Assembly (NCBI RefSeq): GCF_900095175.1
Contig: NZ_LT606946.1
Coordinates: 436,712-500,711 of the forward strand
Direction of reading: 5' to 3'
DNA: 64,000 nucleotides
From: Polynucleobacter necessarius
Lineage (GTDB): Bacteria; Pseudomonadota; Gammaproteobacteria; Burkholderiales; Burkholderiaceae
Every line of letters begins with the position of its first letter. The first letter of the stretch is position 1. Below the pieces are notes generated by a model. The model saw only the letters and a program-made list of their open reading frames with translations. It was not told the origin of the DNA and searched no databases. Positions 9,857-54,989 of this stretch are shown in pieces. A program made the translations under genes and the position numbers.

Positions 9857-10045
9857 TCAGCGCTTATTGAGTTCTTTTAGAAGCGTTCTTTGCACTACAA
9901 ATGCCAGGGGCAGTGCAAGCCAGCCGAGCTATAAATAAGGAGAATCTACTGGCAGCGATTTTCTGACGAGATATTCAAAAATGAAGGCGGCAGCAATAGC
10001 AATCGTGCTGGAAATAATAACGTTTTTATCTATTTTCTTGCGCAT
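9857..10045 (-). pseudogene. Small two-helix membrane protein interrupted by an amber codon
   Basis: From the ATG complement at 10043-10045 a reading frame gives 38 residues (MRKKIDKNVIISSTIAIAAA..., one hydrophobic helix) and stops at TAG (complement 9929-9931). The same frame continues without further stops into a second hydrophobic stretch (LGWLALPLAFVVQRTLLKELNKR, about 23 residues) and a TGA at 9857-9859. A GAGAG ribosome-binding sequence precedes the start. The continuity suggests a 62-residue two-helix protein whose codon 39, possibly TGG, became TAG. Alternatively only the 38-residue protein (9929-10045) is real. I do not recognise the family. Confidence 0.5.
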
Positions 10046-10069
10046 AACATCTCTCATCAGTAAAGGGGT

Positions 10070-11140
10070 TTAATCGTTAAAGGTCACAACGTGATCAGCC
10101 GCTAAATAGATGCCAATTTTTTCTCCAATGGCATGATCATGGTGACTGGGAACGAAAGCAAAAATCTCTACTCCGGAGGCGAGTTTGAGAGTGTATAAAA
10201 AATCAGCGCCACGAAAAATCTTGCGCACTACTTCTGCTTGCATGGGACTGTGATCATCATGGGAGATATCATCTGCACGCAAGAGAACATCAATCTGATC
10301 GCCCACTTTTCCAGTGTGTCCAGGTTCTAAATCTAATTCACCCAGCTCGATTCTGACTTTATTGTTGGGTTGAACAAGCCCTTTTACAAAGACGCCGCGA
10401 CCAATAAAGTCTGCAACATATCGATTGACTGGTTGGTGATAGAGCTCATAAGGAACATCCCACTGAATGACTTTACCGTCAGCCATGACACCCGTTTTGT
10501 CGGCAATTGCAAATGCCTCAAATTGATCATGGGTCACGAGCAAGGCGGTAATATTATTTGCCTTGAGAATATCTCGGGTTTCACCTGCAAGGCGCTCCCT
10601 CAGTTCAATGTCCAGACTAGAGAAGGGTTCATCAAGCAAAATTAAGTCAGGCTCCGGAGCCATTGCCCTTGCCAGCGCCACTCGTTGTTGTTGTCCGCCA
10701 CTCAGTTCATGAGGGTAGGCATCAGCCTTATCTGAAAGTGAAACTCTTTCAAGCCACTCCTTGGCAACGCTGGATCTTTGCTGGCTTGGGAGATGCTGAA
10801 GGCCAAAGGCAATATTTTCTAAAACACTCAGATGGGGGAAGAGGGCAAAGTCTTGAAAGACCATGCCTACTTTTCTTAGGTTAGGCGGAGTATGAATGGA
10901 GGCAGAGCTCACTACCTGATCTCGCAACAAGATCTCACCTGCTTTTACTGGCTCAAATCCACAAATAGCTCGCAGAACGGTTGATTTCCCGCAGCCTGAG
11001 GAGCCCAGTAGGCAGCCAATTTCACCCTGGGCAAGATCTAGATTGAGACCTTTGACAGCCGTTACGCGACCTTGACCATCTAGGCTGGGATAGTCAATTT
11101 CCAGCTGTTTGATAGAAAGCAGTGTGTGAGTGGAGTTCAT
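10070..11140 (-). CDS. fbpC: Ferric-iron ABC transporter ATP-binding protein (FbpC-like)
   Basis: A 356-residue ATPase that energises iron(III) import. It has Walker A GSSGCGKST near residue 47, Q-loop VFQDFALFPH, signature LSGGQQQR, Walker B LILLDEPFSSLD and the switch histidine in THDQFEAFAIAD. The C-terminal 100 residues form a TOBE-like regulatory domain. It is transcribed divergently from the permease with 68 bp between the starts. The pairing with an FbpB-type permease and an FbpA-type binding protein supports iron rather than sulfate, spermidine or thiosulfate as substrate. Confidence 0.88.
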   Translation of the reverse strand: MNSTHTLLSIKQLEIDYPSLDGQGRVTAVKGLNLDLAQGEIGCLLGSSGCGKSTVLRAICGFEPVKAGEILLRDQVVSSASIHTPPNLRKVGMVFQDFALFPHLSVLENIAFGLQHLPSQQRSSVAKEWLERVSLSDKADAYPHELSGGQQQRVALARAMAPEPDLILLDEPFSSLDIELRERLAGETRDILKANNITALLVTHDQFEAFAIADKTGVMADGKVIQWDVPYELYHQPVNRYVADFIGRGVFVKGLVQPNNKVRIELGELDLEPGHTGKVGDQIDVLLRADDISHDDHSPMQAEVVRKIFRGADFLYTLKLASGVEIFAFVPSHHDHAIGEKIGIYLAADHVVTFND

Positions 11141-11208
11141 CTCTATAATTTTCTCATTAATGCTAGTGGTTTAATACATAGCTAGAGTCTAAACGGATTG
11201 TGGATTGA

Positions 11209-12765
11209 ATGAATCGTATTGTGGTGCCGCTTGCCCTGTTGTTATTTTTGCCCCTATTTGGCTTGGCAGCACCATTCCTATTTCCGGGAAGTGATTTATT
11301 AGTCAGCGGCACCCTGAGTCATTTGTGGAGCTTTGTGTTGGGCGGATATATTGCCTCCACCTTAGTACTCATACTCGGTGTTGGGGTGGGGGTATTTATT
11401 CTGGGTGTGGGCAATGCCTGGATCATCGCTAGCTATGATTTTCCGGGTAAAAAAATATTTGAGTGGGCTTTAATTCTTCCCTTGGCCGTCCCTACTTACG
11501 TCATGGCTTATTTATTTGTAGATCTGCTGCAGTTTTCTGGGCCGATACAAAGTGGCCTTCGTAGCATGCTGGGAATGGAGTCGCTATGGTTCTTTCCAGA
11601 TCCGCGTTCATTGAGTGGGGCTATTTGGTCTTTTTCATTCTGCCTCTTTCCCTATGTCTATCTCATTACTCGTACTGCATTTCTAGAGCGTAGCGGTCGA
11701 TTGATTGAGGTTTCAGAAACGCTTGGCTACAGTCCTCTGCAAGGGTTTATGAAGTTAGTGCTACCTATGGCAAGACCAGCTATCTTCGCCGGCATGGCCT
11801 TGGCACTCATGGAGGTCTTGGCTGATTTTGGAGCGGTTTCTTACTTTGGTGTGCAGACCTTTGCAACGGGCATCTTTAAGGCTTGGCTTTCTTTTGGTGG
11901 CCGTGTGGCTGCGGTGCAGCTTGCTTTGGGCCTGTTGAGTTTTGTCCTACTCATCTTTTTTATTGAGCAGAGTAGCCGTTCAAAATTGCGTTATGCCTCA
12001 TCATCAAGAGGTAAGACATTGGCTAAGTCTCTGCGCGGTAAGGGGGCTTTTTTTGCATTTGCATTTTGTGGTGCCACGCTCTTGTGCGGATTCTTGTTGC
12101 CAGCATTTGCACTCGTGCAATTACTCTTTAAGCAAGGTCTGACAATTGATATTCGATATCTAGACTGGTTGAGTAATTCTTTATCTGTTTCAGTTTTGAC
12201 TGCAGTCATTTCGGTTGTGCTGGCAGTATTTTTTGCTTACTCGGTGAGAATGAATGCTCGCTTAAGCTGGGTCAATCGATTGCTAGGATTTGGTTATGCA
12301 CTCCCTGGTGCGGTACTTGCCATCGGCATCCTTTCTTTTCTAGAGATTTTTCAGCTCGCTTGGTGGATATCTGCGAGCATGCTGGTCCTGGTCTACGCAT
12401 ATTTGGTCCGCTTTCTTTCCTCCAGCTTGCAAAGTGTAGAGGCTGGGCTCGCGCGCATCACTCCATCTATGGATGCTTCAGCGGCCCTCTTAGGCTTATC
12501 TAAGGCACAGATTTTGAGGCGGGTACATGTACCCTTGCTAAAACGAAGTCTCATTACAGCCGGCCTCTTTGGCTTTGTGGATGTGATGAAAGAGTTGCCA
12601 GCAACCCTACTATTGCGCCCCTTTAATTTTGATACTTTGGCTGTGGCTACCTATCAATTAGCGGCAGATGAACGTCTTGCTGAGCTGGCTTTACCCTCCT
12701 TAACGATTGTTTTAGTTGGGCTTTTCCCGGTTTTACTGCTTTCCAGGGTGATTTCTAAATCTTAA
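11209..12765 (+). CDS. fbpB: Ferric-iron ABC transporter permease (FbpB-like)
   Basis: A 518-residue inner-membrane protein with two fused permease halves of about six helices each, as in FbpB, SfuB and HitB. Each half carries an EAA loop: one around SETLGYSPLQGFMKLVLPMARPA (quoted in part: ETLGYSPLQGFMKLVLP) near residue 175, the other around SAALLGLSKAQILRRVHVP near residue 425. It is divergent from the ATPase gene and 62 bp upstream of the binding protein, with a Fur-like box overlapping its stop codon. Confidence 0.9.
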   Translation: MNRIVVPLALLLFLPLFGLAAPFLFPGSDLLVSGTLSHLWSFVLGGYIASTLVLILGVGVGVFILGVGNAWIIASYDFPGKKIFEWALILPLAVPTYVMAYLFVDLLQFSGPIQSGLRSMLGMESLWFFPDPRSLSGAIWSFSFCLFPYVYLITRTAFLERSGRLIEVSETLGYSPLQGFMKLVLPMARPAIFAGMALALMEVLADFGAVSYFGVQTFATGIFKAWLSFGGRVAAVQLALGLLSFVLLIFFIEQSSRSKLRYASSSRGKTLAKSLRGKGAFFAFAFCGATLLCGFLLPAFALVQLLFKQGLTIDIRYLDWLSNSLSVSVLTAVISVVLAVFFAYSVRMNARLSWVNRLLGFGYALPGAVLAIGILSFLEIFQLAWWISASMLVLVYAYLVRFLSSSLQSVEAGLARITPSMDASAALLGLSKAQILRRVHVPLLKRSLITAGLFGFVDVMKELPATLLLRPFNFDTLAVATYQLAADERLAELALPSLTIVLVGLFPVLLLSRVISKS

Positions 12766-12783
12766 TTGATAATCATTCGTATT
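12764..12783 (+). promoter_or_regulatory. Fur-like iron box upstream of fbpA
   Basis: The core TTGATAATCATT at 12766-12777 matches the centre of the Fur consensus GATAATGATAATCATTATC; the right arm is imperfect. It overlaps the fbpB stop and lies about 50 bp before the fbpA start. This fits iron-repressed expression of the binding protein from its own promoter. Confidence 0.65.
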
Positions 12784-12827
12784 TGTGATACATTAGATTT
12801 ATTCTAATTCTGATCGTAAATACAACA

Positions 12828-14587: not shown

Positions 14588-14598
14588 GGTAAGGCAGC

Positions 14599-15417
14599 TT
14601 AGCTAAGCAACCATTTCTTAATCGATTTATTGACACACATTGCGTCTAAGGCGAGCCCGAAGAACTCTGAACCGTTGGTAACCATGCTTTCGATAGCCTC
14701 AACCTTGCCTGATTTCACGCCACGCAAATACGTTGCTGCGCGATAGCGTAGAAAGTGTTCATTCTCGCCTTCTTCGTTATCTGTGGAGCAGATCTCGAGG
14801 CTGCCATAACGGGTTTCTGGATTGATATTCAGAATAGAGAGGCCCAATGCACCAATTAACTTTTCTGGCACAGGAATAGGCACGTAAGAGTAGAGTGAAA
14901 CTAGTTGCTCTTGTTCGTCGACTTCAATAATGTGGTCCACATCAAAGACATCTTTTTCTGTCAATTCAGTTTCACCGGAATCACTGCCACCAAAGGTAGA
15001 TTCAAGTTGCAACATCGCTGTATTGCCATCTTTGGAGATATCGATCATGTCAGGGTAGCCAAGCAGACCTTTCCACCAGTACATCAGCGAGAAGGTGCAA
15101 GGTTTAACTTCAACTAAACCCTTATTGGTTGATTTGGCAAAGTACAAGCCGTAGAACTCATCATCTTCCTCGAGTCCGTATTGATCGACTTTCAGTTTCT
15201 TTGGCGCAGCTGCCTTGGGTGATTTTTTGGCAGCTTTCTTTGGGGCAGGCTTTTTAGCGACAGGCTTTTTAGTTGCTGGTTTTTTCACTACCTTCTTTAC
15301 GGCCTTTTTGGCTACCGCTTTTTTAGCGACAACTTTTTTAACGGCTTTCTTTGCAGGGGCTTTTTTTACCACCTTAGTAGCTACTTTCTTTTTTGCTGGA
15401 GACTTCTTTGTAGCCAT
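14599..15417 (-). CDS. Histone H1-like basic tail fused to an acidic globular domain
   Basis: A 272-residue protein. Residues 1 to about 75 are almost only K, A, V, P and T in KKAVAKK / KKPAPKK repeats, like the DNA-binding tails of bacterial H1-like and AlgP-type proteins. From about residue 76 the sequence becomes an ordinary globular, acidic domain (EEDDEFYGLYF ... MYWWKGLLGYPDMIDIS ... FLRYRAATYLRGVKSGK) of about 195 residues that I do not recognise. The tail should bind DNA, or possibly RNA, non-specifically; what the C-terminal domain tethers to the nucleoid is unknown. It is convergent with the lipoprotein gene, with 11 bp between the ends. Confidence 0.8.
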   Translation of the reverse strand: MATKKSPAKKKVATKVVKKAPAKKAVKKVVAKKAVAKKAVKKVVKKPATKKPVAKKPAPKKAAKKSPKAAAPKKLKVDQYGLEEDDEFYGLYFAKSTNKGLVEVKPCTFSLMYWWKGLLGYPDMIDISKDGNTAMLQLESTFGGSDSGETELTEKDVFDVDHIIEVDEQEQLVSLYSYVPIPVPEKLIGALGLSILNINPETRYGSLEICSTDNEEGENEHFLRYRAATYLRGVKSGKVEAIESMVTNGSEFFGLALDAMCVNKSIKKWLLS

Positions 15418-15921: not shown

Positions 15922-16270
15922 CTACGCCTTCTTTAAGAAGCAGGCTTTGAGCAACATCTTGCCAGCCTCTGTCTTGCAGTCAACCTCGTGATTGCCAGAA
16001 ACCAAGCGAATACCCTTAATCTTTGTTCCAACCTTGAGGGTGGTTGATGACCCCTTTACTTTGAGATCCTTAATCGGGGTTACAGTGTCGCCATCAGCTA
16101 GTAAGTTGCCATTAGCATCCTTTACGATGAGGGGTGCCTTCATCCTCTTCAACGCTAGCTGCCATGGGCCACTGATGGCCACATTGAGCGCAAACAAAAT
16201 TCTCACCGTCAGGGTAGGTCATATCCTCCTGGCAGGCTGGACATTTTGGAAGGTTGGCAGTGGTATTCAT
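15922..16270 (-). pseudogene. phnA: phnA/yjdM-like zinc-ribbon gene, frameshifted
   Basis: The ATG complement at 16268-16270 starts a PhnA-type zinc ribbon (LPKCPACQEDM ... [11 protein letters not shown]). After about 42 codons the frame leads to a stop, while the characteristic C-terminal domain ([39 protein letters not shown]) continues in the neighbouring frame to 15922. The total length, 349 nt, is 116 codons plus one base, so a single inserted base around 16134-16144 explains it. PhnA proteins are about 111 residues and of uncertain function. A shorter C-terminal reading frame beginning near 16206 lacks the zinc ribbon and is probably not a separate gene. Confidence 0.85.
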
Positions 16271-19077: not shown

Positions 19078-20096
19078 ATGACAAATTCTGTCCCGTACTC
19101 CATTCTAGATATATCTCCCATTCCTCAGGGATTTACTGCTGCAGATGCCTTACGTAATTCCTTGGATATTGCCCAGCATGCGGAGGCTTTGGGATATACC
19201 CGCTATTGGGTGGCTGAGCATCACAATATGACCGGCAATGCCAGCTCTGCCACTGCAGTCTTGGTTGGCTATATTGCTGGCGGTACAAAAACCATTCGGG
19301 TTGGTTCTGGTGGGGTGATGTTGCCAAACCACGCTCCATTAATTATTGCAGAACAATTTGGCACACTAGCGTCTCTTTATCCAGGAAGAATTGAGTTGGG
19401 CTTAGGGCGTGCGCCTGGAACTGATCAAATGACAGCCAGAGCCCCTTACGTCGCGATTTATTGGGAAGCGATGCTCGCTTTCCGCAGGATGTACGAGAGT
19501 TGCAACATTACTTTGGCCCTATTCAGGAGGGGCAGTCTGTAAAGGCAATTCCGGGGGCAGATACCGAAGTACCAATTTGGATATTGGGCTCCAGTTTGTA
19601 TGGTGCTCAATTGGCGGCTCACTTTGGCCTGCCTTATGCCTTTACCTCACACTTTGCTCCTGAGCAACTTATTGATGCAATGGCCACCTATCGTGAATTA
19701 TTTAAACCATCCGATAAGCTAGCTAAGCCCTACTGTGCATTTGTGATGAATGTAGTGGCTGCCGATACAGATGAAGAAGCCATTCATCTTTTCACTACTT
19801 TGCAGCAGAACGTCATTCGTATGCGCCGCAATACTCGTGGGCAATTGCCGCCACCGATTGAAAATTTAGATGACTTTTGTGAGTCTCACGAAAAAGCCAC
19901 TGCCGCTCATGCATTGCGCTGCTCTGCAGTTGGGTCTATGCAGACGATCAGAAAGGAGATGCAGTATTGGCTCGATCAAACGGGTGCTAACGAAATGATT
20001 ATCACTGGGCAAATATTCGATCATCAAGCCCGCTTAAGATCATTTGAGATTGCCGCTGAAGCGGCCAAGGAATTGCGCTTTAGCTCTCAGGTCTAA
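19078..20096 (+). pseudogene. LLM-class (luciferase-like) flavin monooxygenase, frameshifted
   Basis: The first reading frame (19078 onward) gives the family N-terminus: [19 protein letters not shown], and [15 protein letters not shown] near residue 120. The remainder ([42 protein letters not shown]-terminus to 20096) is read in another frame. The break is at the C run near 19442-19447; two extra bases or one missing base would restore one protein of about 338 residues, the normal size. Such enzymes use FMNH2 and oxygen on unknown small substrates. The start is 6 bp after a TATGAT element, without a ribosome-binding sequence. The 3' end overlaps the PIN gene by 17 bp. Confidence 0.88.
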
Positions 20097-20502
20097 AAGC
20101 GTTGTAGTCGCTGGTAATCAAAATATTTTCTTGAGCGGCTCGACTGGCAATGCGCAGTACGGCATTGTCTTTGCTAATGAGTATCGATGGTCTTAATTGA
20201 TAAGCCAGATCTAAGAAAATTTGATCATCGGGGTCTTCGCATTTCCAAGGCGCGCTAGATAAATTGGAATCATCATGTAGCTGCGCGATAGATTGCCATT
20301 GAGTCAAAATGCTTGCTTGAGCTGCGCTATCAAGCTGAAAGAGCGGGCGAGAGATGACATCGGCAAACTTCAATAAAGTCTTTTGACTGGCGATTACTGG
20401 AATACTCCCATTCACAATCGCCTGTTTCAGATTAGCAGCCCTTTCGTCATCAAACACAAAAATATCTAACAAGATATTGGTGTCCAAAACTACTGGCTTC
20501 AT
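20080..20502 (-). CDS. PIN-domain protein (putative VapC-like ribonuclease)
   Basis: 140 residues with the PIN acidic residues in place: VLDTNILLDIF at the N-terminus, a central acidic position, CEDPDDQIFLDLA near residue 95-107 and SKDNAVLRIA near 115. It matches the PIN_3 group often labelled as a toxin component of toxin-antitoxin systems. No small antitoxin gene is adjacent; instead it follows the YaeQ gene by 5 bp on the same strand. RNA cleavage is inferred from the family. Confidence 0.8.
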   Translation of the reverse strand: MKPVVLDTNILLDIFVFDDERAANLKQAIVNGSIPVIASQKTLLKFADVISRPLFQLDSAAQASILTQWQSIAQLHDDSNLSSAPWKCEDPDDQIFLDLAYQLRPSILISKDNAVLRIASRAAQENILITSDYNAFRPES

Positions 20503-20507
20503 TGCTG

Positions 20508-21047
20508 TTAATTGCGCCAGATTTCTGGGGTGATAGTAACTTGCCCCATATCTGAAGAAACGTAAGCTTCCCCATCTTGAACATTGACATGCAGAACCAT
20601 GCTGCGCTCGACTAGCTTGTTAAGTTCATTGGCCTGCTCCGCAGGAATGGAGATCACCTGAAGGTTACGGGCACGAGTTAATTTATTCGCAATCCCATCC
20701 CACCAGATTTTGCTAGTGTGTCCACCATAGCAATAGACGATGACTTGATCTGATCGACCGCAGGCTTTGAGGATACGACGTTCATCTGGTTGACCGACTT
20801 CAATCCACAGCTTGATGGCATCAGTGAGATCCTTAACCCAGAGGTCAGGTTCGTCGGTATCGCTTAAGCCTTTAGTGAAAGCCAGATCTTCCTGAGCTTG
20901 AAGAGCAAAAGCAATGATGCGTACCATCATCCGCTCCTCGGTTTCTGAGGGATGCTTTGCGATGGTGAGGGAGTGACTGCTGTAATAGTGGCGGTCAGAG
21001 TCTGCGACGTGGAGGTCGGCTTTGTGGATAGTTGCGCGTAGAGCCAT
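20508..21047 (-). CDS. YaeQ family protein
   Basis: A 179-residue cytosolic protein: MALRATIHKADLHVADSDRHYY, ETEERMMVRIIAFAL, DEPDLWVKDLTDAIKLWIEVGQP and RNLQVISIP are typical YaeQ motifs. The family has a PD-(D/E)XK nuclease-like fold, and the E...D...E residues (EERMMVR, DLWVKD, IEVGQ) are present; its cellular role is not settled. It is the first gene of a two-gene unit with the PIN protein and divergent from the flavoprotein gene. Confidence 0.9.
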   Translation of the reverse strand: MALRATIHKADLHVADSDRHYYSSHSLTIAKHPSETEERMMVRIIAFALQAQEDLAFTKGLSDTDEPDLWVKDLTDAIKLWIEVGQPDERRILKACGRSDQVIVYCYGGHTSKIWWDGIANKLTRARNLQVISIPAEQANELNKLVERSMVLHVNVQDGEAYVSSDMGQVTITPEIWRN

Positions 21048-24359: not shown

Positions 24360-24990
24360 ATGCGCATTAAAACTCTAGTAGCCGCTATGGCAGCAGTAGC
24401 TTCATTGGCTCCAATCGCCGCTCAAGCTCAATCTTCAAGCGAGAATCCATGAATGATTCGTGTACGTGCTGTGTCTGCTTTGGCAAAACGGTCAATCAGG
24501 AGCGGTTGTACAGGGAGCCAATGTCAAGGCCGCAGATAAAGTTATTCCTGAGTTAGATATTTCTTACTTTTTTACTAAAAATATTGCTGCTGAATTAGTT
24601 TTGACTTACCCGCAGACAATTGATATTAATTACACTGCCAGCCAAACTAAGTTGGGTTCAATCAAGGCATTGCCACCATCATTATTGCTTCAGTACCACT
24701 TTACAAACTTTGGCGCATTTAAGCCATACGTTGGTGCCGGTGTGAACTACACAATTTTCAGTAGCCGTAATAACTTAGGCAATGGCGCGTACTCAGTTGA
24801 TAACTCAAGCTTTGGCGTAGTTGGTCAAATTGGTATGGACTATATGTTTGATAAAAACTGGGGTCTAAACGTCGATGTTAAGTATGCAACCATGTCTACT
24901 AATGTTACGGATACCACAACTGGTGCAAATGGCGGAAAGTTAACTCTGAACCCATGGATGCCAGCTGTTGGTGTGACTTACAAGTTCTAA
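24360..24990 (+). pseudogene. ompW: OmpW-family outer membrane protein, nonsense plus frameshift
   Basis: The ATG at 24360 starts a clear signal peptide (MRIKTLVAAMAAVASLAPIA, AQAQ). Codon 31 is TGA (24450-24452) exactly where OmpW has the invariant Trp before the first strand (P-W-MIRVRAVS). The same frame then reads MIRVRAVSAL, and about 24474-24485 a frame change is needed to reach the rest: WQNGQSGAVVQGANVKAADKVIPELDISYFF ... GVTYKF, ending in the usual aromatic residue. It would be an eight-stranded barrel of about 210 residues. OmpW is FNR-regulated in other proteobacteria, in line with the two boxes upstream. Confidence 0.88.
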
Positions 24991-25749: not shown

Positions 25750-27669
25750 ATGGCTTTAATCGTACTCACTGATGCAAAACTGGCTTTTGGCCACGTTGAC
25801 CTCCTCGCAAATACTGCTTTCTCATTGGAATCTGGGGAGCGGGTTGGCTTAATTGGCCGCAATGGCACAGGCAAATCTTCTTTGCTGAAGATTCTAGCTG
25901 GCATAGAAAAAATGGATGATGGCTTGCTGCAATATCAGCAAGGCCTCCGTATTGCTTATGTTCCTCAGGAGCCTATATTTGAGGCTGAGGAGACTGTATT
26001 TGATGCGGTATCTAAGGGTGTGGCCCAAGCCAAGGCTCTGCGCGAAGAATATGAAGCTCTGAGCATAGGAGAGTGGGACGATGCCGCCCACCATCGTCTT
26101 GATGAAGTGCAATCCCAATTAGAGGCCTTAAGTGGCTGGAATTGGGAGCAGCGCGTACATGAGACTTTGGATCGTTTGCATTTAGAGGCTGAGGTCAAGA
26201 TCAATACGCTATCGGGCGGCACCAAAAAGCGAGTTGCATTAGCACGTACTCTAGTAGAGATGCCGGATGTTTTGCTATTAGATGAACCTACTAACCATTT
26301 GGATTTGGATTCAATTTCTTGGTTGGAAGATTTGCTCAAGGAATACAAAGGCTCAGTGATTCTGATTACTCATGATCGCGCCTTCTTGGATAACGTTTGC
26401 ACACAAATTGTTGAGCTGGATCGCGGCATCTTACGTACCTATCCAGGTAACTTCTCGGCCTATGAAGTATTAAAAGATCAGGAAATGAATTCTGAGTCTT
26501 TGGCCAATGCACGGGCGGATAAATTGCTCGCTCAAGAAGAGGTCTGGATTCGTAAAGGGGTTGAGGCAAGACGTACTCGCAGCGTTGCCCGTATAGCGCG
26601 CCTCGAAGCACTTCGTACCACTCGCTCACAAAGACGTGATGCGGTTGGGCAGGTCAAGCTAGCAGTGTCTGCTGGCGATAGAAGCGGCAAGATTGTTGCT
26701 GATCTGCAGAATGTTTCTAAATCCTATGATCGTCCGATTGTGAAGGATTTCACAGCAACCATTTTGCGTGGCGATAAAGTGGGATTGCTTGGTCCTAACG
26801 GCGCTGGTAAGACCACGCTCCTCAAATTAATTCTCGGAACAATTACGCCGGACTCTGGTACGGCAACCATGGGTACACGCATTGAGGTAGCTTACTTTGA
26901 CCAGATGCGCGAAGGCTTAGATCTCAATGCTTCACTAGAGGACTACATTAGCCCAGGTAGTGAGTGGATCGAAATTAATGGTAATAAGAAACACGTTAAA
27001 AGCTATCTAAGCGATTTCTTATTCGCGCCAGAGCGTACCAATTCACCAGTCAGCACTTTGTCTGGTGGAGAGCGTAACCGCCTATTGTTGGCACGCTTAT
27101 TTGCTCGTCCTGCAAATGTCTTGGTTCTTGATGAGCCAACCAATGACTTGAATATCGATACTCTCGATTTGCTTGAGCAGTTATTGCAGGACTACAAGGG
27201 CACTGTGTTTTTAGTGAGTCATGATCGTTACTTCTTGGATAACGTGGTCACCAGCATCATTGCTAATGAGGGTGATGGATTCTGGCGTGAGTATGAAGGT
27301 GGCTACGAAGGTTGGAAGATTCAGAAAGCACGCTCAGATAAGATCCGCGCTGCCAATGGTGGCCTTAAGTCTGAGCCGAAACAAGAGTTAAAGGTCGAGC
27401 CAAAAGTTGAAGCTAAGCCTGTGGCTACAAAAAGTGGCGTGCAAAAGCTCAATGGCAAGGAGCGTCAGGAGCTTGAGGTATTGCCTTTGCAAATCGAGGC
27501 GCTAGAGACGGAGCAGGCGGATATTGGTATTGCGATGAGTAATCCAGACCTTTATAAGAACGAGCCTGAATTAGCAGCCAGCATGCAAGCACGCTTATCC
27601 GAAATTACTGCTGATCTCGATATCAAGTTACAGCGCTGGGAATTACTCTTAAGTCGCTCAGAGTCTTAA
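25750..27669 (+). CDS. uup: ABC-F ATPase Uup
   Basis: A 639-residue cytosolic protein of two ATPase domains without membrane part. Walker A motifs are GRNGTGKSS near residue 37 and GPNGAGKTT near 347; signature motifs are LSGGTKKR and LSGGERNR; Walker B motifs are LLLDEPTNHLD and LVLDEPTNDLN. The C-terminal 80 residues form a coiled coil, the hallmark of Uup. Members act on ribosomes and affect tandem-repeat stability and transposon excision. The final 4 bp overlap the end of the convergent permease gene. No Shine-Dalgarno sequence is seen before the ATG. Confidence 0.94.
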   Translation: MALIVLTDAKLAFGHVDLLANTAFSLESGERVGLIGRNGTGKSSLLKILAGIEKMDDGLLQYQQGLRIAYVPQEPIFEAEETVFDAVSKGVAQAKALREEYEALSIGEWDDAAHHRLDEVQSQLEALSGWNWEQRVHETLDRLHLEAEVKINTLSGGTKKRVALARTLVEMPDVLLLDEPTNHLDLDSISWLEDLLKEYKGSVILITHDRAFLDNVCTQIVELDRGILRTYPGNFSAYEVLKDQEMNSESLANARADKLLAQEEVWIRKGVEARRTRSVARIARLEALRTTRSQRRDAVGQVKLAVSAGDRSGKIVADLQNVSKSYDRPIVKDFTATILRGDKVGLLGPNGAGKTTLLKLILGTITPDSGTATMGTRIEVAYFDQMREGLDLNASLEDYISPGSEWIEINGNKKHVKSYLSDFLFAPERTNSPVSTLSGGERNRLLLARLFARPANVLVLDEPTNDLNIDTLDLLEQLLQDYKGTVFLVSHDRYFLDNVVTSIIANEGDGFWREYEGGYEGWKIQKARSDKIRAANGGLKSEPKQELKVEPKVEAKPVATKSGVQKLNGKERQELEVLPLQIEALETEQADIGIAMSNPDLYKNEPELAASMQARLSEITADLDIKLQRWELLLSRSES

Positions 27670-28979
27670 TCTAATTTATGCCGCTTGGATTTGAGCAGTG
27701 AAAATGCCTCAAGCCCAAAAGATGCTACAAGAGCAATCAGTAGGGCAATGGCACTCGATGGTGCGGTCTTGATTGCATTAATTAGTAGGGCAGTGAATAA
27801 ACTCAGATTGATTGCAATTGTACACCACAAAATTTTTGGGCTAGCCCCTGTCTGCTTATGTACGCGAATATGTCCGTAGCTCACAATGGCATAAACCAAT
27901 AGAAACGCCAGACTAGCCATTTGACCCACTTCATTGAGTGGGAAGAGTAATGCCAGAATAATTACGCCAATGGAGGAGATGGTAAGCGCGCGGAGCTTGC
28001 TCTTCAGTACGGAGTTTCCTAGGGCGCTAGAGACTTCATGCTTTTCTGTAAGATCAGCTGCGATATTGGAGGCTGCAAAAATTGTGGCATTGACCGCTGC
28101 AGCGCAGGCCAGTAAGGCGGAAATGCTAATAACAATAAAGCCAATTTTGCCTGCCACGATTTTTGCAGCATCAGCAAGCACGTGGCCATTATCCACTTGC
28201 ATAACGTTTAAGGGTATGAGCAACACAACTGCCGTACTCACTGCTAGATACGCAATCGTTACCAAGATTAGTGCTGAAAACATGGCAAGAGATAATTCTT
28301 TTTGTGGGCTCTTCATGGCTGACGAAGAATTAGTCACCACCCCGAAGCCTTGGAAATTAATGTAGAGAATACCTGCAGCCACTGCAATTCCTTCAATCGA
28401 ACCGCCAGCCATGTGATAGCTCTTGAAATCTGCCTGATGAAATCCCATGGCTGAGAATACAAGAAGGCTAATCACAACCAGACCAATTGCAAATGTCTCG
28501 GCCTTGCCAACCAAACTTGGCCCCAAAAGATTTAGGAATGTACAAATCAAGATGATTGCTGCGGTAATGCATTTCAGCAATATGGGGGAGAGGTCGCCCC
28601 CAAAGATGGTATTGGTGTATTCAACGAAACCTGCTGCGTATAAAGCGGCAGCAATGAGGTAGGCGATGTATTGAAATAGATTAATGCCGCCAGAAATAAT
28701 TCCTGGGCCATAACTCATGACTGTGAAGGTCGCTGCACCACCACTACTCGGAAAAGTGGCGCCAAGTTTTGCGTAAGAGTACACCGAGAAGGAGGCTGCG
28801 ATGGCCCCAATCAGAAAGGCTAGTGGCACGTGAGTGCCAGCATGCGAACTCGCTAAACCCAAGAGGGAGTAAAGGCCTGCACCCATCATCCCGTCGATAC
28901 CCAGCGCGGTCGCAGAAAAAAGACTAATGTCCTTGGCTTGCTTGGGATTGCGTTTGAGTAAGCCTGAATTCAATCGCAA
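27666..28979 (-). CDS. APC-family amino acid permease
   Basis: A 437-residue inner-membrane protein with about 12 helices. The first helix motif (ATALGIDGMMGAGLYSLLG) and FPSSGGAATFTVMSYG are typical of the APC superfamily. The substrate cannot be told from sequence. The start is a TTG directly after the cbpM stop codon with no spacer, so translation is probably coupled to cbpM. It is the third gene of the unit cbpA-cbpM-permease. Confidence 0.85.
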   Translation of the reverse strand: MRLNSGLLKRNPKQAKDISLFSATALGIDGMMGAGLYSLLGLASSHAGTHVPLAFLIGAIAASFSVYSYAKLGATFPSSGGAATFTVMSYGPGIISGGINLFQYIAYLIAAALYAAGFVEYTNTIFGGDLSPILLKCITAAIILICTFLNLLGPSLVGKAETFAIGLVVISLLVFSAMGFHQADFKSYHMAGGSIEGIAVAAGILYINFQGFGVVTNSSSAMKSPQKELSLAMFSALILVTIAYLAVSTAVVLLIPLNVMQVDNGHVLADAAKIVAGKIGFIVISISALLACAAAVNATIFAASNIAADLTEKHEVSSALGNSVLKSKLRALTISSIGVIILALLFPLNEVGQMASLAFLLVYAIVSYGHIRVHKQTGASPKILWCTIAINLSLFTALLINAIKTAPSSAIALLIALVASFGLEAFSLLKSKRHKLD

Positions 28980-30416: not shown

Positions 30417-31968
30417 TTAGCTCATGACCCCAACTTGCCATGGTACGAATTCATAATCTCCAAGACCCAGTAGCTCACTTTTAGATGCTTCACCAGAGGC
30501 TGTTCTGAGAAAGAGCTCAAAAATCCGCTGCCCCATCTCTTGAACTGAAACAGTGCCATCTAAAATCTCACCGCAATTAATGTCCATGTCTTCAGTAAGT
30601 CGCTCATACATCGGAGTGTTGGTGACAAGCTTGATGCAAGGCGCTGGCTTTGATCCAAACATGGAGCCACGCCCTGTAGTAAATGCAATTAAGTTAGCAC
30701 CGCCAGCAATTTGACCTGTTGCTGAGACTGGATCAAAACCGGGTGTATCCATAAATACAAAACCTTTGGCTGTTAGTTACTGGTTCCGCATATCGATACA
30801 CCTCCATTAATGGCCCAGTTCCAACTTTCATGGATGAGCCGAGGGACTTTTCAAAGATATTAGCTAGGCCACCAATTTGATTTCCGGGGCTGACTTGTCC
30901 ATTGATCTGAACATCGCGGCCAACAGAATGTTCATCTTTCCACCAGCGTATACGTTGGATTAATTTTTCGCCGATGGCCTTGCTTGCCGCTCTACGGGTT
31001 AGTGTATGTTCGACACCATAAATCTCCGGTGTTTCAGAGAGGATGCCGGTACCACCATGGCGCGACAAAATATCAATTGCGGCACCCAAGGCTGGGTTAG
31101 CAGTAATTGAAGAGAAGCCATCCGATCCACCGCATTGCAAACCAACGCAGAGGTGGCTTGCAGAGACAGTTTGCCTTTTAGCTTTATTAGCTTCCAGGAG
31201 GAGCGCTTTTACAGCCTCAATTCCCGCTTCAATTGTTTTGCGTGTGCCACCAGTTTCTTGCATGATGAAAGTATGCAAAGTGGAATTTTCTTGCAAAGCT
31301 TCTTGCTCCATCAATCCTTTGAGTTGATTTCGCTCACAACCCAAACCAATGATCAGGGCGGCAGCCAAGTTGGGATGCTGTGCATATCCGGCCATGGTTC
31401 GGCGCAGCAACTGCATTGGCTCGCCACTCATTTCCATGCCGCAACCAATGTTATGACTAAAGGCAACCACACCGTCAACATTGGGAAAATCTTTTAAGCG
31501 TTCGGGGGTAAACCACGCTGCAATTTTGTTCACGACAGTTGCGGAGCAATTCACGGTAGATAGAATGCCGATGAAATTGCGAGTACCTACTTTGCCATTG
31601 GCGCGCACATAACCTTCAAAAGTTGCACGCTCAGATTCTGGCAAAAGGGTAGTAGGTTTATATTCACTTGCATAGGCATAGTCCCGATCGAATTCACGAA
31701 ACTCCGTGTTATGGCTATGAACCATCGTGCCAGGCTCAATATCGGTATTGGCAAATCCTACGGTCACGTTGTATTTCAGAATAGCTTCGCCCTTGAGGAT
31801 TTTCTTAGCTGCAATTTTGTAGCCTGCTGGCACTTGACTGCGGCTCGTGAAATTCTCACTTGGGACTGGTTCACCAATTGCTACATCTACCCGCGCCACT
31901 ACAATGTTGTCATTAGGATGGAGTCGAATAATAGGGCCTATTAGGCGCTTCTCTGAGATTTCAATCAT
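30417..31968 (-). pseudogene. UxaA-family altronate/galactarate dehydratase, frameshifted by a 4 bp duplication
   Basis: The N-terminal frame (31968 down to 30733) encodes the SAF-like domain (residues 1-85: PNDNIVVARVDVAIGEPV) and most of the iron-sulfur dehydratase domain (GTRNFIGILSTVNCSATV, SHNIGCGM, LGCERNQ, HLCVGLQCGGSDGFSSI). It then ends in a nonsense tail after YRYAEPVT. The rest (FMDTPGFDPVSATGQIAGGANLI ... FTTGRGSMFG) continues in another frame to 30417. At the junction, GTTAGTTA at 30772-30779 is a tandem 4 bp duplication; removing one copy restores an uninterrupted protein of about 515 residues. It would dehydrate a hexonate or hexarate; the exact substrate is unknown. Confidence 0.88.
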
Positions 31969-32033: not shown

Positions 32034-32735
32034 TTAATGACTCAGGTCAAAGATAATGACTTCGGCGTCTTTACCATTGCTGATCAGTAGATTGCTCTCG
32101 TTTTCTATCAATAGCGCATCACCAGTAGACAGGGATATGCCGTTGACCTCTAAAGAGCCTTTCACAAGGTGAATATATGCTTTACGTGCTGGATCGAGCT
32201 CTAATTTTTGGGATTCGGATCCATCAAATAAGCCTACATATATTCTGGCATCGGCATGAATTTTGACTGCATTACCCGCGCCATCAGGGGATGCTATTAA
32301 GCAAAGCTTGCCTTGCTTGTCTAAGAGCGGGATAGATTTTTGCTCGTAACTCGGCTGAACTTCCATAACATTTGGTTGAATCCAAATTTGAAGAAAGTGG
32401 GTAGTCTGATCTTGAGCATGATTGAATTCACTATGGGTGACCCCAGTCCCAGTGCTCATGCGTTGAACATCGCCAGGTGGAATGCCCTTCACGTTCCCCA
32501 TGCTGTCTTCGTGAGCTAATTCACCAGATAAAACATGGCTGATGATTTCCATATTACGGTGGCTATGCTTACCAAAACCCATGCCTGCTGCTACTCGATC
32601 CTCATTTATTACCCTTAAATTGCCCCAGCCCATGAATTGAGGGTCATGGTAGCCGGCAAACGAGAAGGAATGAAAGCTTTTAAGCCATCCATGGTCTGCA
32701 TAGCCACGTTCTTGGGATTTTCTGAGGACTAACAT
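32034..32735 (-). CDS. Pirin-like cupin protein (YhhW type)
   Basis: A 233-residue double-cupin protein. Metal ligands are visible in GFGKHSHRNMEIISHVLSG (two His) and GTGVTHSEFNH (His and Glu), as in E. coli YhhW, which can degrade quercetin in vitro. The N-terminal SQERGYADHGWLKSFHSFSF is the pirin signature. Probable cytosolic dioxygenase or redox sensor; natural substrate unknown. It stands alone, divergent from the TAXI receptor remnant. Confidence 0.9.
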   Translation of the reverse strand: MLVLRKSQERGYADHGWLKSFHSFSFAGYHDPQFMGWGNLRVINEDRVAAGMGFGKHSHRNMEIISHVLSGELAHEDSMGNVKGIPPGDVQRMSTGTGVTHSEFNHAQDQTTHFLQIWIQPNVMEVQPSYEQKSIPLLDKQGKLCLIASPDGAGNAVKIHADARIYVGLFDGSESQKLELDPARKAYIHLVKGSLEVNGISLSTGDALLIENESNLLISNGKDAEVIIFDLSH

Positions 32736-32806: not shown

Positions 32807-34211
32807 ATGGGAAGTATCAAACAAGACATTAAAGAAGCTGCCCTTGGTTTTACTGAGGATATCCAAGAAAGATGGAGAGATTTTGTCCTGTTTCTGAAAG
32901 AGGCCTGGCCAATTCTTACATTGCTCTTCATTTTGCTGGTGGGTATATGGCTATATGCCGACCCACCACCTCCGCGACAGGTATTAATGGCTACCGGAAC
33001 CGAGGGTGGTTCATATGAGGTGATGGCTAAAAAATATGTAACTTTTTTTGAGAAAAAAGGCATCAAGCTTGAACCGGTAAAAACCAAAGGCGCTCAAGAA
33101 AACTTAAAGCGTCTTGCCGATCGCAAAGATTCCTTACAAGCAGCGTTTGTTCGGGCTGGAACATTTAATCCAGGTGGAATTGGCGGCATTGATTCGCTGG
33201 GTGCGGTTGATTATGAGCCTATATGGTTTTTTTATCGCGGGCCAGAATAAGGCGTCTAATTTTAGAGGGGTCAATGGTCAAATGAAACATTTCCTTAAGG
33301 GGAAAGTTTCGGTAGACGCTGTTGGTAGCGGTACCCACTCTCAAGCTATGCGCTTGATTGAGGCATCCGGACTTCAGAAAGAAGCCCATTTCTTATATTT
33401 ACCCAATCATGACGCAGTAAATGCTCTGAAGAAGGGCGAGATTGATGGTGCTTTTTTGGTTGATGGCTATCAATCAGAAAGTGTTCAAGCGTTGCTTACC
33501 GATCCTCAAATTCATCTCACCGGATTTGAGCGAGCCGAGGCATATACCCATCTCTTACCTTACTTGCATACCTTAAAAGTGTCTATTGGTGGATTTAGTT
33601 TGCCCAGAAATAATCCCGATATTGAAATACAGTTGCTATCAACAACGACCAATCTATTGATTGATGATCGCATGCATCCTGCGCTTCAATTCCTATTTTT
33701 AGAAGCGGCACATGAAATTAACGGTAAAGCTAATTTTTTTGCACGGCGCGGAGAATTTCCTTTCTTTGGAGATTCTCATTTCCCAGAGAGTCCAGTTGCT
33801 TTGCATTATGAGAAAAATGGTTCACCTTGGTTAATGACCTATTTCCCATTTTGGCTAGCAGAGCTCATTAACCGTTTACTGTTTGTGCTCTTACCATTTT
33901 GCATGATCGCTTATCCAGCCCTCATTAGTCTCCCGGGTTATCGAAATAAGCGAATGCGACGCAAGATTAATTCCCTGTATGGTACTCTCAAAGCCTATGA
34001 GCAGGAGATGATTGAGGGTTTCTCGTCAGGATCTGGTGATGAATATCTGAAAAAGCTGGATCTTTTGGAATATGAAGCGCTCCAGCTAAAGGTTCCCAAG
34101 AGTATGGCTGGCGACTACTACACTCTGAGGACTAGTATTGATTATGTGCGTAACTGTTTAAATCGAGATACTAGACCATATCAACTCCAAGATGGTAATG
34201 TTGATATTTGA
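32807..34211 (+). pseudogene. Membrane-anchored TAXI-type TRAP solute receptor, frameshifted
   Basis: The first frame (32807-33250) encodes a cytosolic N-terminus, one membrane helix (WPILTLLFILLVGIWLYA) and the start of a TAXI receptor domain (MATGTEGGSYEVMAKKY, QAAFVRAGTFNPGG, YEPIWFFYRGPE). It stops at TAA 33248-33250. The second frame carries on at once with KASNFRGVNGQMKHFLKGKVSVDAVGSGTHSQAMRL (quoted in parts: KASNFRGVNGQ, VGSGTHSQAMRL) and runs to 34211, with a second hydrophobic segment near the end. One extra base near 33245-33250 explains the break. No TRAP permease gene is next to it. Confidence 0.85.
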
Positions 34212-34245: not shown

Positions 34246-35597
34246 ATGAGACCTTATGACCACCCCGCCAGAAGACAGCTACACGACGAGGTCCATGCGC
34301 GCCCCCAATCGCACTTTGGCCAAATGAAAGGGTGTTATCCCAATCTTTTCTGCTTGATGCGAATTCTCATCAGACTCAAATTGAATGGATTCAAAAGTTA
34401 AGCACTGCATTGGGCGTGCCTAATGATGAGCAAGACCATTCCTTCAAAACATTGACCTTAGCCCCTGAGCCGCAGAGGGTACTTGTTAAATGGGAGCTGC
34501 ATGGTGAGTTTGCAACCATCGCAGTCATTGTGCATAACCCAGTCAAAATTACTGGACCTCTATTGCAGTCACGCTTGTCTCTCGAAAAGACTTTGGATAA
34601 ATTATTTCAGGACCTAGGCTGCCCAATCATTGTTGAGGCGGGCGGTGAAAGAATTTCCGCCCTAGATCTCGCTTTTGAGCATCGCCCTCTGTTTTCTGAG
34701 ACTCAAGAAGTTTCGGCTATTTTTGGTGGAAATACCGTACTCGGAAGTTACATTTTGTTGAGCAAGAAGGCCCAACTGTGGACGGATTTAAGTTTGGATG
34801 AGGATGGCTTCATCTCTTGCTTTATTCCGCATGATATCTTAGGATCACGACAGGCTGGTCGTATAGCGCGAGCTCTTGCTGAAGCGGAAACCTATCGTAT
34901 GGCAGCCATGATCGCATTCCCAGTAGCAAAGAGTCTCTCTATGCCACTCAGAAGTGCGGAGTCGGAATTGGCAGATCTTTCTAAAAATATTTCTCAGCTC
35001 CAAACCGAGCCTGGTATCTATACCGAAAAGGATGGACAGTTTTTGGGTGAGCTTTCTCATTTAGCCTCAAGAGCCGAGCAATGGATTTCAGGTTATGGAT
35101 TGCGCTTCACTGCCTCAGAGGCATACAGTCAATTACTCAGTAAAAACTTATACGAGTTAGCAGAGTCTCCGATTCCAGGTGTGCAGTCCTTATCGGAGTT
35201 TATGGATCGGCGTTTTCAGCCTGCGATGGGCACCTGTATTTGGACTCAGCGTAAGTTAAAAGAGCTATCTGACCGCATCTCGAGAACAACTCAAACATTG
35301 AGGACCCGTATTGAGTTTGTAAATGAAGAGCAGACGCAAAAATTACTTGCTAGCATGGATCAGAGAGCCCGTTTGCAATTACGCCTTCAAGAGACGGTAG
35401 AGAGCTTATCGGTTCTGGTGTTAACTTACTATGCGGTAAGTTTATTAGCCTATGTCGCTAAAGGCGGAAAAGAGGCTGGTCTCGCCATTCATCCGGAGAT
35501 TATTGCTGCAATAACAGCCCCAGTAGTGGCGATCACCTTCTTGCTAATTAGCAAACGACGACGCAAGCGAATTGCTGGGATGGGTAAATCGCTCTAG
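34246..35597 (+). pseudogene. DUF3422 family membrane protein, frameshifted
   Basis: The ATG at 34246 opens the typical DUF3422 N-terminus (YDHPARRQLHDEVHARP). After about 25 codons the frame breaks at GGC/CAA near 34319-34321; one missing base there would continue as FGPNERVLSQSFLLDANS into the long second frame ending at 35597. The whole would be about 450 residues with a C-terminal membrane helix pair (VLVLTYYAVSLLAYVAKGG ... AAITAPVVAITFLLIS). A GTG at 34332 could start a shortened protein lacking the conserved first 28 residues. Function of the family is unknown. Confidence 0.85.
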
Positions 35598-45386: not shown

Positions 45387-46711
45387 CTAGATCAATAAAC
45401 TCGCTAATAAATAACTGAGTAAGCCGGCTAAGGCTGAGCCAGTTAACACGCTAATTACACCTTTTTGAAACTTAAACAGCGCTAAGCCTGCAAGCAAGGT
45501 AATTGCAATCGAAGTCCAAGAAATGGAACCGCCAAGACCATGTGGAAAAAAGACGTGATAGGCAAAGAACAGTCCAAGATTGGCGATTACGCCGACTACT
45601 GCAGCAGAAATTGCGGTGAGTGGTGCAGTAAAACTCAACTTGCCATGTGTGGACTCAATGAGTGGCCCACCGACCAAGACCAGGAAAAAAGAAGGTAGGA
45701 AAGTAAACCAGGTGGCAACGCAAGCGCCAAGTACGCCAAACCAAAATGGATTGCTATTGCCGATGAGATGTTGAATATGACCAGCGAGGTAGCCAACAAA
45801 AGCTACCACCATGATGAGCGGACCGGGGGTGGTTTCTTCAAGCGCTAAACCATCCATCATTTGACCAGCGCTGAGCCAATGAAATTGATCGACGGCACCT
45901 TGATAAACATAGGGCAGAACCGCATAAGCACCACCAAACGTGAGAAAGGCAGCCTTGGTGAAAAACCAAGCAATTTGTGGATAAAGTGTTTTCCATCCAA
46001 AAATCAGCGTCAATACAATAAACGGAATAAGCCAGAGCGCTGTAACAACTGAGCTATGTATTACAAATCGCTCTCTAGAAAACTTGGCATGCTCTGGAGT
46101 TGGGGTGTGATCGTCAATGATTGCAGGAGCATGAGTCTCACCCACTTTATTGTGAGGAGTGGTTTGTTGAAAATATTCTGGGAAACGCTTACCACCCCAA
46201 ATGCCAATCAAGGCCGCAAAAATAACAATGATCGGGAAAGCCAGGTTAAATATAAAGATCGCCAGAAAAGATCCCAGTGCAATCCAACGCAGTGCTTGAT
46301 TGTGAATCGTGCGTTTACCAATGCGGACTGCAGCATGCAGGATGATGGCGGTAACAGCAGGTTTGATGCCAAAGAAAATAGCGGCAATCCAGGGTACTTG
46401 GCCAAAAGTTAGGTAGACCCAAGATAGGCCAATCAAAATAAAGAGAGAAGGCAAAACAAAGAGGGTGCCGGCTAGAACCCCACCCCAAGTGCGATGCATG
46501 AGCCAGCCAATATATGTGACTAATTGCTGAGCCTCTGGCCCCGGTAACAGCATGCAATAGTTCAGTGCATGTAAAAAGCGCCGCTCAGAAATCCAGCGAC
46601 GCTTTCAACTAGCCCTTGGTGGAGGACAGCGATTTGCCCCGCGGGGCCACCAAAGCTAATAAAGCCTAGCTTGGCCCAAAATTTCAGGGCTTCGCGAAGT
46701 GGAACACTCAA
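45387..46711 (-). pseudogene. chrA: Chromate transporter ChrA, frameshifted near the N-terminus
   Basis: A TTG whose complement is 46709-46711, overlapping the fabI stop (TTGA), opens the ChrA N-terminus [35 protein letters not shown]. The frame then shifts at the T run 46603-46605 (A run on the coding strand). One more base would continue as [27 protein letters not shown] (quoted in parts: [26 protein letters not shown]) into the long frame that ends at 45387. The full protein would have about 440 residues in two homologous halves ([10 protein letters not shown] and AFLTFGGAYAVLPY) and export chromate. A remaining frame from 46553 lacks the first 50 residues. Confidence 0.88.
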
Positions 46712-53189: not shown

Positions 53190-53290
53190 GCTTTAAGCAA
53201 GCGCCCCAATAAGGTGCCATTTTGGCGCATTTATGCACCGGAATAGAAAATACTTGTTTTAAAACAATGCATTAGCCTCAGAGCTAGCGT

Positions 53291-53319
53291 TTGGTGAAAT
53301 TGCCCTTCTTTGTTAGAAT
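53291..53319 (+). promoter_or_regulatory. Promoter of the NlpC/P60 gene
   Basis: TTGGTG at 53291-53296, 17 bp spacer, TAGAAT at 53314-53319. The start codon follows after 6 bp without a ribosome-binding sequence, so the transcript is predicted to be leaderless. Confidence 0.6.
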
Positions 53320-53325
53320 GGATCG

Positions 53326-54009
53326 ATGTCACTTAAAAAAGACCTCTTGCCTACGCTGCTCAAGCAAATGTCAACGGCTGCGCTGATTGCCTTTGCATTC
53401 GCTGCGCATCCTCTCTTGGCAGCAGATACTGCATTGGATGCTTCAAAAGAAGCTCCAGTTGAGGCCTCCACTGAAACTCCCAAGCAAAGTATGTTTCAGG
53501 CGGGTAAGTCTTACTTTATTCGTGCATCAGATCGCTTTGCAGATTCAGTTACCGGTAAATCAGATGAGTTGATTAATCGCGCCATGGAAGTGATTGGCGT
53601 GCGTTATCGTTGGGATGCAGAGTTGCCGCAATCCGGTTTAGATGGCAGTAGTTTTGTCGGCTATGTTTTTAAAGACAAATTGGGTTTTTTATTGCCACGC
53701 AAATCCACTCAGATTAGTCGCGTAGGTAAGTCCATTACCCGCGAAGAATTGCAGCCTGGTGATTTAGTATTCTTTAACACCATGCGTTTAACTTTCTCCC
53801 ATGTCGGCATTTATGTTGGCGACAATAAATTTATTCACTCTCCATCCAAAGGCGCTAGTGTGCGTGTAGACGATCTTGGTAGTCTCTACTGGGATAAGCG
53901 CTTTGATGGTGCGCGCCGTTTATATGGAAGTGATAACTTGGGTGATGCAGAGCGTCAAGAGTTGTTGAATGAAGTGAATAAACTCAAACGCAAATCTCGC
54001 AGCCTCTAA
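53326..54009 (+). CDS. NlpC/P60-like protein lacking the catalytic cysteine
   Basis: A 227-residue secreted protein: signal peptide (about 1-32, ending HPLLAAD), linker, and a C-terminal NlpC/P60 domain (about residues 80-200). Active enzymes of this family cut D-Glu-meso-DAP bonds in peptidoglycan with the Cys of the DCSGFV motif. Here the motif is LDGSSFVGYVF: Cys is replaced by Gly107 and the next Gly by Ser109. The histidine of FSHVGIYVGDNKFIHSP (H159) remains. The reading frame is open, so this is either a degenerate hydrolase or a binding-only version. It is convergent with a decayed barrel gene. Confidence 0.85.
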   Translation: MSLKKDLLPTLLKQMSTAALIAFAFAAHPLLAADTALDASKEAPVEASTETPKQSMFQAGKSYFIRASDRFADSVTGKSDELINRAMEVIGVRYRWDAELPQSGLDGSSFVGYVFKDKLGFLLPRKSTQISRVGKSITREELQPGDLVFFNTMRLTFSHVGIYVGDNKFIHSPSKGASVRVDDLGSLYWDKRFDGARRLYGSDNLGDAERQELLNEVNKLKRKSRSL

Positions 54010-54018
54010 TTTTTTGCT

Positions 54019-54989
54019 TTAAAAGCTTGCTGCTAAGCCTATAGAAGTTCCTCGGACGTTCTGTCCAAATTGATACCGAAAAACTGGTCGCACCCTGCTA
54101 AACATGGGGTCTGAGGCACTACGATCAATTTCTATTCCGGTGCCTACAGAGGAAAGCGAATCGAACCCAAGAGCCCCGCGGAGCTGGCCAAGAAACTCGG
54201 TATGCGCCACCCCTCAAAGACGGCTCGCAATGGCCTCTCTAATACGGTTAGAGGTGTGGGGTATCTGGCTCTGGCCCACAATCCTAAACTTTGAGAGTCT
54301 GCAGATCCTTGAACGGCAGTAGAGCTGTCAAAGGTGTTGATTGCGATATTGGTGTAGCGCAATTCTGCATCGTATTCACGTTCGGGCTTGTGGTCCTCAT
54401 AGTCCAGCATTAATGAGCCACCAAGGCCATAAGCATTCATACGACCTCCATTTAAGAACTGTAGGTCTACTCCTGTTTTATTTTCTATGATGCGACCTGC
54501 AATCGAGAGGTCGCTCTCGACGCGGCCCAGCATGACGTTGGCAATTGGGCGAATGCGTAGGGTATCTGTTAGCGGGAAGTCTCAGCCAACACCACCAGTT
54601 CCGGTAATGCCATTCCAGTTGACCGGTACCGTAATGCTCGCATTACCAATGCCATCAGTAAATGTCGGGTTATATCGGTTAAAGGCAATCGTGCCCTCAA
54701 GATAGAGTGGGAAGTTGGCGCTAATACGGTCTCCACCCCCAAGGGAAATCATTTGTAAATTTTGATTTTCTCCGCCTTTATCGGTAATCGAGAGTGATCC
54801 AGTAGTGACATCTGGGGTGAGTGAGTAGCCCGTGATGGTCATGAAGGCATCGGCACGTTTCTTGAGGTAGTTATTGGCTGCCGTTGTGAATTGGCCACTC
54901 TGCGCGTAAACGAGATGCGCTTGTGCGCTAAGTACCAACACGACCAAAACTTTTAGAAGGGTGGGGATAGATTTCATAAACAATTGCAC
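54019..54989 (-). pseudogene. Outer-membrane beta-barrel protein, nonsense plus frameshift
   Basis: A signal peptide (SIPTLLKVLVVLVLSAQAHLVYAQ) is followed by repeated amphipathic strands. In the first frame a TGA (complement 54582-54584) interrupts GVG-x-DFPLTDTLRIRPIANVM, where Trp is the likely original residue. The same frame then continues to RAVFEG and breaks at the G run near 54214-54218. One more base would join VAHTEFLGQLRGALGFDSL ... VFRYQFGQNVRGTSIGLAASF, the barrel C-terminus ending in Phe. The intact protein would be about 323 residues. I cannot name the family; it resembles autotransporter-like or solitary barrels. Confidence 0.8.

Follow-up and report, generated by a model that had tools for sequence, protein, structure and literature searches.

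We analysed a 64,000-base stretch (hereafter the window; G000:C1:436712-500711) of a Polynucleobacter genome (G000) that consists of one contig of 1,907,709 bases; with further stretches, about 284 of the 1,908 kb of the genome were examined. Genes broken by frameshifts and stop codons occur in the window and outside it, the lesions are specific to this lineage, selection on it is relaxed over the examined stretches, the ribosomal and RNA polymerase genes are spared, and the same region is damaged in seven other genomes of the genus. It is likely that the genome comes from a host-restricted Polynucleobacter, most probably one living inside its host (i.e. a recent ciliate symbiont resembling P. 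necessarius), in which purifying selection has weakened genome-wide; we infer the host, a population bottleneck and the part played by mismatch repair. The pattern is probably that of early genome shrinkage, as expected of a bacterium that is starting its reduction, presumably inside a host.

Disrupted genes in the window

The relatives matched by protein and DNA searches are Polynucleobacter. The nearest is G040, with 92-95% identity at two genes and ∼93% over the aligned part of the window (from 6826 on), followed at the uxaA gene by G136 (91%), G079 (90%) and then G058. The genomes of G136 and G079 are single contigs of 1.935 and 1.998 Mb, respectively. Synteny with ten relatives is kept across most of the window, and a tree of twelve window proteins pairs this genome with its sister G040 (support 100), with an amino-acid branch of 0.026 to this genome versus 0.016 to G040.

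Four relatives served for a scan of the conserved genes, and up to eight for the alignment of each locus. A preliminary description of the window had listed nine broken loci: all nine are disrupted here, with frames intact in the nearest relatives that carry them, and none of the lesions is present in any relative aligned (Table 1). The alignments also bear out the kinds and number of lesions that it gave (i.e. indels, a 4-base insertion, TGG to TGA twice and TGG to TAG once) and its two doubly hit loci (i.e. OmpW and the barrel protein). The list was incomplete in that a milder tenth lesion, in a patatin-like lipoprotein gene, had been overlooked. This lesion alters the first ∼18 residues, and the arginine-rich RRRF stretch of the relatives is gone; an ATG at 55946, in the other frame, leaves the body of the gene open, and the protein may retain its function despite the N-terminal change. 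In the DUF3422 gene, 421 of 450 codons are still open from a downstream GTG. OmpW has a further deletion of one base upstream of its ATG (counted below among the near-end lesions), and the open reading frame (ORF) of the small membrane protein is open in G040, G079 and G136. Pfam searches of the G079 orthologues confirmed the families of the broken window genes, with a borderline Autotransporter match only for the barrel protein; the orthologue of the small membrane protein matched no Pfam family. Two further candidates were dropped: the pirin gene at 32034 differs at its N-terminus (start site) only, and the gene at 20499-21047 in its last codons only.

Table 1. Disrupted loci in the window and the lesions found by alignment with relatives.
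Gene product	Position	Strand	Lesion	Remark
Small membrane protein (62 amino acids in relatives)	10045-9857	minus	TAG at 9931-9929	G040 and G079 read TGG
YjdM/PhnA (yjdM/phnA)	16270-15922	minus	+1 at 16135	PF03831 in orthologue
Luciferase-like monooxygenase	19078-20096	plus	+2 at 19442	
OmpW (ompW)	24360-24990	plus	TGG>TGA at 24450; -2 near 24473	
UxaA/GarD-type dehydratase	31968-30417	minus	+4 at 30779	
TAXI-type receptor (NMT1-like)	32807-34211	plus	-2 at 33248	
DUF3422 protein	34246-35597	plus	-1 at 34302	in C run
ChrA-type transporter (chrA)	46711-45387	minus	-1 at 46604	388/441 codons open
Outer-membrane barrel protein	54989-54019	minus	TGG>TGA at 54584; +2 at 54213	
Patatin-like lipoprotein	55986-55035	minus	+1 at 55891	tenth lesion; in short T run

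We then compared the window with the same genes in the relatives. A table of 86 families, each conserved in three or more of the ten relatives, gives the window nine flags, of which two are genes cut by its edges and one is spurious, leaving six large disruptions; the DUF3422, ChrA, patatin and small ORF loci fall below the threshold or the family rule of this table. The relatives have 0-2 disruption flags each, plus one partial gene each in G079 and G018; by their coordinates, without alignment, we take the flags in relatives for shadow, edge or short ORFs. A further table covers 54 genes, with queries from G079 and a threshold that misses DUF3422 and patatin; it flags nine genes in the window (one of them edge-cut), none of the 54 in G040, G136 or G079, one in G012 and one partial gene in G081. 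The housekeeping genes of the window are intact, as the preliminary description had noted, but the statistics are weak (hypergeometric p 0.02-0.10, with 15-10 genes called housekeeping).

Erosion beyond the window

A wider scan covered 224 kb (i.e. the window and 160 kb downstream) and the genes that are shared by and intact in both G079 and G040, being blind to damage in these two genomes. Of 105 shared genes, 22 are flagged as disrupted, 78 are intact, four are absent and one is partial; the 22 include pirin with its start-site difference, while DUF3422 escaped the threshold. Alignment of 99 genes, with 100 kb of coding sequence, shows 25 to be broken, by 27 frameshifts and 10 stops in all. 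Thirty of these 37 lesions are clear of gene ends and seven are close to a gene end or precede the start; four of the 25 broken genes have lesions only near a gene end. All ten nonsense codons arose by G>A or C>T relative to G040, one of them with a second change.

Fifteen of the broken genes lie outside the window, and their families were assigned by Pfam on ten proteins from G079 and five from G040. They comprise an acetyl-CoA synthetase, LrgB, an ExbB/MotA-type protein, an FGE-sulfatase protein, a member of the penicillin-amidase family, DUF1924, Tex, two proteins resembling formate dehydrogenase subunits, an SBP_bac_11 binding protein (possibly of the molybdate type) and an adjoining trio (LMWPc, SBF and FMN_red) that resembles an arsenic cluster; two of the 15 have no Pfam family. 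The broken Tex, acetyl-CoA synthetase, formate-dehydrogenase-like, arsenic-like and penicillin-amidase genes sit in the stretches L123 to L126 downstream of the window. The preliminary view that the broken genes are all accessory fits the window and needs qualifying outside it: tex, which has three lesions, is widely conserved, and the damage is therefore not limited to narrow accessory genes. A burst of mobile elements was also considered, and the two own-specific inserts of ∼1 kb that were tested are both single copy.

Sequencing error or biology

Frameshifts and stops can be mimicked by consensus errors in a poorly polished assembly, an explanation to which we give very little probability here. 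Several lesions are one-base indels, some of them in short runs (e.g. the C run in DUF3422 and the T run in the patatin gene), and substitution errors too would lift the ratio of nonsynonymous to synonymous changes (N/S) in intact genes. The control is a block of 39 genes (28.5 kb) around rpoBC and the ribosomal operons, which beside ribosomal proteins and RNA polymerase presumably includes tuf, fusA, secE, nusG, secY and similar neighbours. No lesion was found in these 39 genes, where the full set of 37 lesions would predict 10.5 (P(0) = 2.7e-5) and the 30 that avoid gene ends would predict 8.5 (P(0) = 2.0e-4). The lengths of 16S and 23S ribosomal RNA (rRNA) equal those of G079. Moreover, 4-base insertions and stops that arise solely via G>A or C>T are atypical of sequencing errors, and both are found among the lesions. 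Sequencing error as their source is thus very unlikely; the preliminary description had named it as the alternative to erosion, and both the lesion-free block and the raised N/S of intact genes (see below) speak against it.

In the same 60 kb as the control block, four other genes are broken (i.e. a GNAT acetyltransferase, a pilQ-like secretin, its 226-residue neighbour and a Y1 transposase-family protein); a fifth, truncated where the stretch stops, was left uncounted. The secretin and its neighbour (L175:8002-9797) would fit a loss of type IV pili or of DNA uptake.

Selection on this branch

Changes since the split from G040 were counted with G079 as outgroup; two of 101 aligned genes were dropped as short, mis-placed ORFs, and the two trivial cases (pirin and the gene at 20499) were entered as intact. 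In the 74 intact genes N/S is 276/1460 (0.189) here versus 224/1809 (0.124) in G040 (p = 1.1e-5), and in the 25 broken genes it is 135/621 (0.217) here versus 56/600 in G040 (p = 3e-7). N/S is raised both in the broken genes and in the intact ones, and selection has therefore been relaxed across the two sets. The comparison of broken with intact genes that the preliminary description had proposed gives 0.217 versus 0.189 (p = 0.24): the broken genes are barely further diverged than the intact ones, so that the lesions look young. The elevated N/S in intact genes points to a shift in selection that predates most individual lesions.

Relaxed selection in one lineage, as first proposed, is thus supported by lineage-specific lesions, raised N/S, erosion beyond the window, an outlying 16S score (see below) and the sparing of ribosomal and RNA polymerase genes. 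The proposal of a recent change of lifestyle holds in part: the individual lesions do look young, but the shift in selection seems older than most of them.

Mismatch repair

A further explanation would be that only this lineage lost mismatch repair and thereby became a mutator. A domain search did not find MutS_V in this genome, and it was equally not found in 111 of 129 near-complete genomes of the genus (this one included); MutL_C was found in none of the 11 genomes tested. Both domains are equally missing in the intact relatives G040, G079 and G136. Since clean relatives lack them too, their absence does not explain the difference between lineages and would at most account for the supply of mutations; we rejected a lineage-specific loss of mismatch repair, which has hardly any probability left. 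Absence of MutS and MutL in PnecC has been published, and P. acidiphobus, outside PnecC, is likewise reported to lack both genes (PMC5644125). The absent domains and the close synteny with clean relatives are therefore consistent with PnecC and not exclusive to it.

Seven other eroded genomes

A search of 186 genomes of the genus with the uxaA DNA returned fragmentary matches or matches of unusual length in several small genomes of one contig each. We analysed seven single-contig Polynucleobacter genomes (G118, G023, G117, G125, G017, G119 and G116); G116 was picked for its 16S score and uxaA length. The set excludes G104 and small genomes without a uxaA match. In G104 (2.1 Mb) the uxaA match is one base shorter than in its list neighbours, a possible frameshift outside the eroded set.

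In the syntenic region, the seven genomes have 7-16 broken genes out of 29-47 present. The broken share is 24-41% in six of them; G118, with 9/47, is similar to the 10/53 found here. Among the 15 non-eroded genomes examined, chrA is intact in all 14 carriers and the TAXI receptor in all 13, while every one of the seven eroded genomes has a broken or fragmentary chrA and the TAXI receptor is broken in all six eroded carriers. The uxaA gene is broken or fragmentary in 7/7 eroded genomes and intact in 13/13 non-eroded ones, a contrast that is partly circular because six genomes were fetched by their uxaA damage. Two details qualify these counts: lesion mapping placed no lesion in the TAXI gene of G023 or the YjdM gene of G017, though the 54-gene table flags both, and G081, taken as clean, has a compensated -4/+4 stretch with a stop in its TAXI gene and a partial YjdM gene.

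Six genes were compared for lesion position, and in them this genome's lesions sit at positions other than those of the seven. In the twelve-protein tree, G118 stands elsewhere among clean genomes with weak support (56-77), and the other six eroded genomes group together (support 63), G119 being placed by 1,194 residues only. A few lesion positions coincide among these six clade mates and may be shared.

Pooled over the seven genomes, genes broken here are lost more often. If uxaA is left out, p is 0.0012 when absences enter the count and 0.012 when they do not (with uxaA, 5e-4 and 0.004), and the genome-by-genome version without uxaA gives P from 0.005 to 0.46. These tests treat related genomes as separate, and some absences are phylogenetic (e.g. 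the clean G081 is without 11 of the 54 genes).

Other features of the region

An alanine/lysine-rich histone-like gene (14599-15417) has 72 bases fewer than in relatives, in frame and inside its repeats. At 27666-28979 there is a 437-residue permease-like ORF, where G065 has an unrelated 223-residue gene and G040 a gap of equal size. Outside the window, ∼55 kb (G000:C1:558379-613137) are without a counterpart of at least 1 kb in the G079 and G040 stretches compared, and could be an island or a rearrangement.

Probable host restriction and early genome reduction

Erosion is already known in the genus, in parallel among Euplotes symbionts, and is here confirmed gene by gene. P. necessarius is described as a recent symbiont of Euplotes that is rich in pseudogenes (PMC5018217, PMC11253213, PMC9837558, PMC5632650, PMC11127453, PMC5644125), with a count of 269 (∼18%) in the absence of mobile elements (PMC5632650); unusual 16S mutations are reported in these symbionts (PMC5018217), as are drift-driven reduction and independent origins in Polynucleobacter symbionts (PMC11253213). 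The genome analysed here resembles P. necessarius STIR1 and other Euplotes endosymbionts in its high pseudogene fraction (22/105 flagged, 25/99 by alignment) and in the raised nonsynonymous share of its intact genes, and the single-copy state of its two own-specific inserts (only two tested) is in line with the reported lack of mobile elements. Its 16S covariance score of 1542.7, a proxy rather than a position-by-position comparison, is the fourth lowest full-length score in 110 genomes, the six lowest being G119, G125, G116, this genome, G118 and G185 (2.2 Mb). Of the other eroded genomes, G017 (1.55 Mb) alone gave no 16S match in the same search. The preliminary description had suggested an endosymbiont, which we also infer, from the likeness to these published features and from the seven other eroded genomes.

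Several points weigh against host restriction. The genome is hardly reduced (1.908 Mb versus 1.935 Mb in G136); the 16S scores of the eroded G023 and G117 are ordinary; an extra drift to A+T on this branch was considered and rejected, as four-fold sites show none; and the seven eroded genomes were themselves selected, six by a damaged uxaA match and G116 by a low 16S score. The size of the genome falls inside the range of clean relatives (the non-eroded G105, at 1.838 Mb, is smaller), which could favour a hostless setting, in which streamlining or drift eroded a free-living or particle-associated population. We consider this unlikely, in view of the unbroken sister G040 and of small genomes that are clean or nearly so in the same region: none flagged in G105 (1.84 Mb), one partial gene in G081 (1.82 Mb) and none in G016 (1.71 Mb), in which only 23 of the 54 genes were found. 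Streamlining, moreover, should act through strong selection and remove genes cleanly, and would not leave pseudogenes with a raised N/S.

Host restriction, the reading that we prefer, would work as follows. Without MutS and MutL, small indels may arise freely across the whole radiation; free-living kin would purge them, and a host-restricted lineage would fix them in genes no longer needed, as purifying selection is weakened both through drift in small populations that pass bottlenecks and through a lost demand for free-living functions. Chromate and arsenic export, the use of acetate and formate and the breakdown of sugar acids would fit such open-water functions.

At 1.908 Mb, this genome differs from STIR1 (1.56 Mb) and from the symbionts as given in a review (1.7-1.8 Mb), and it would therefore represent an earlier stage. 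Candidatus Pandoraea novymonadis is, like the bacterium proposed here, a Burkholderiaceae endosymbiont of a protist, but with 1.16 Mb and 13 pseudogenes (PMC5632650) it is beyond the stage of active erosion. Tentatively, the order of loss after host restriction may be repeatable, with chrA, the TAXI receptor and probably the UxaA-type dehydratase among the first genes to fail; this barely reduced genome could then show the opening moves of a path along which six more degraded genomes have gone further.

Such parallelism at the level of genes is the most interesting part of the finding, and the several eroded relatives allow testing of whether the same genes fail first. Since eroded and clean genomes both lack mismatch repair, the case also sets the supply of mutations apart from selection. 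An early stage of erosion beside an unbroken sister that is ∼93% identical over the window means that the lesions can be dated and ordered.

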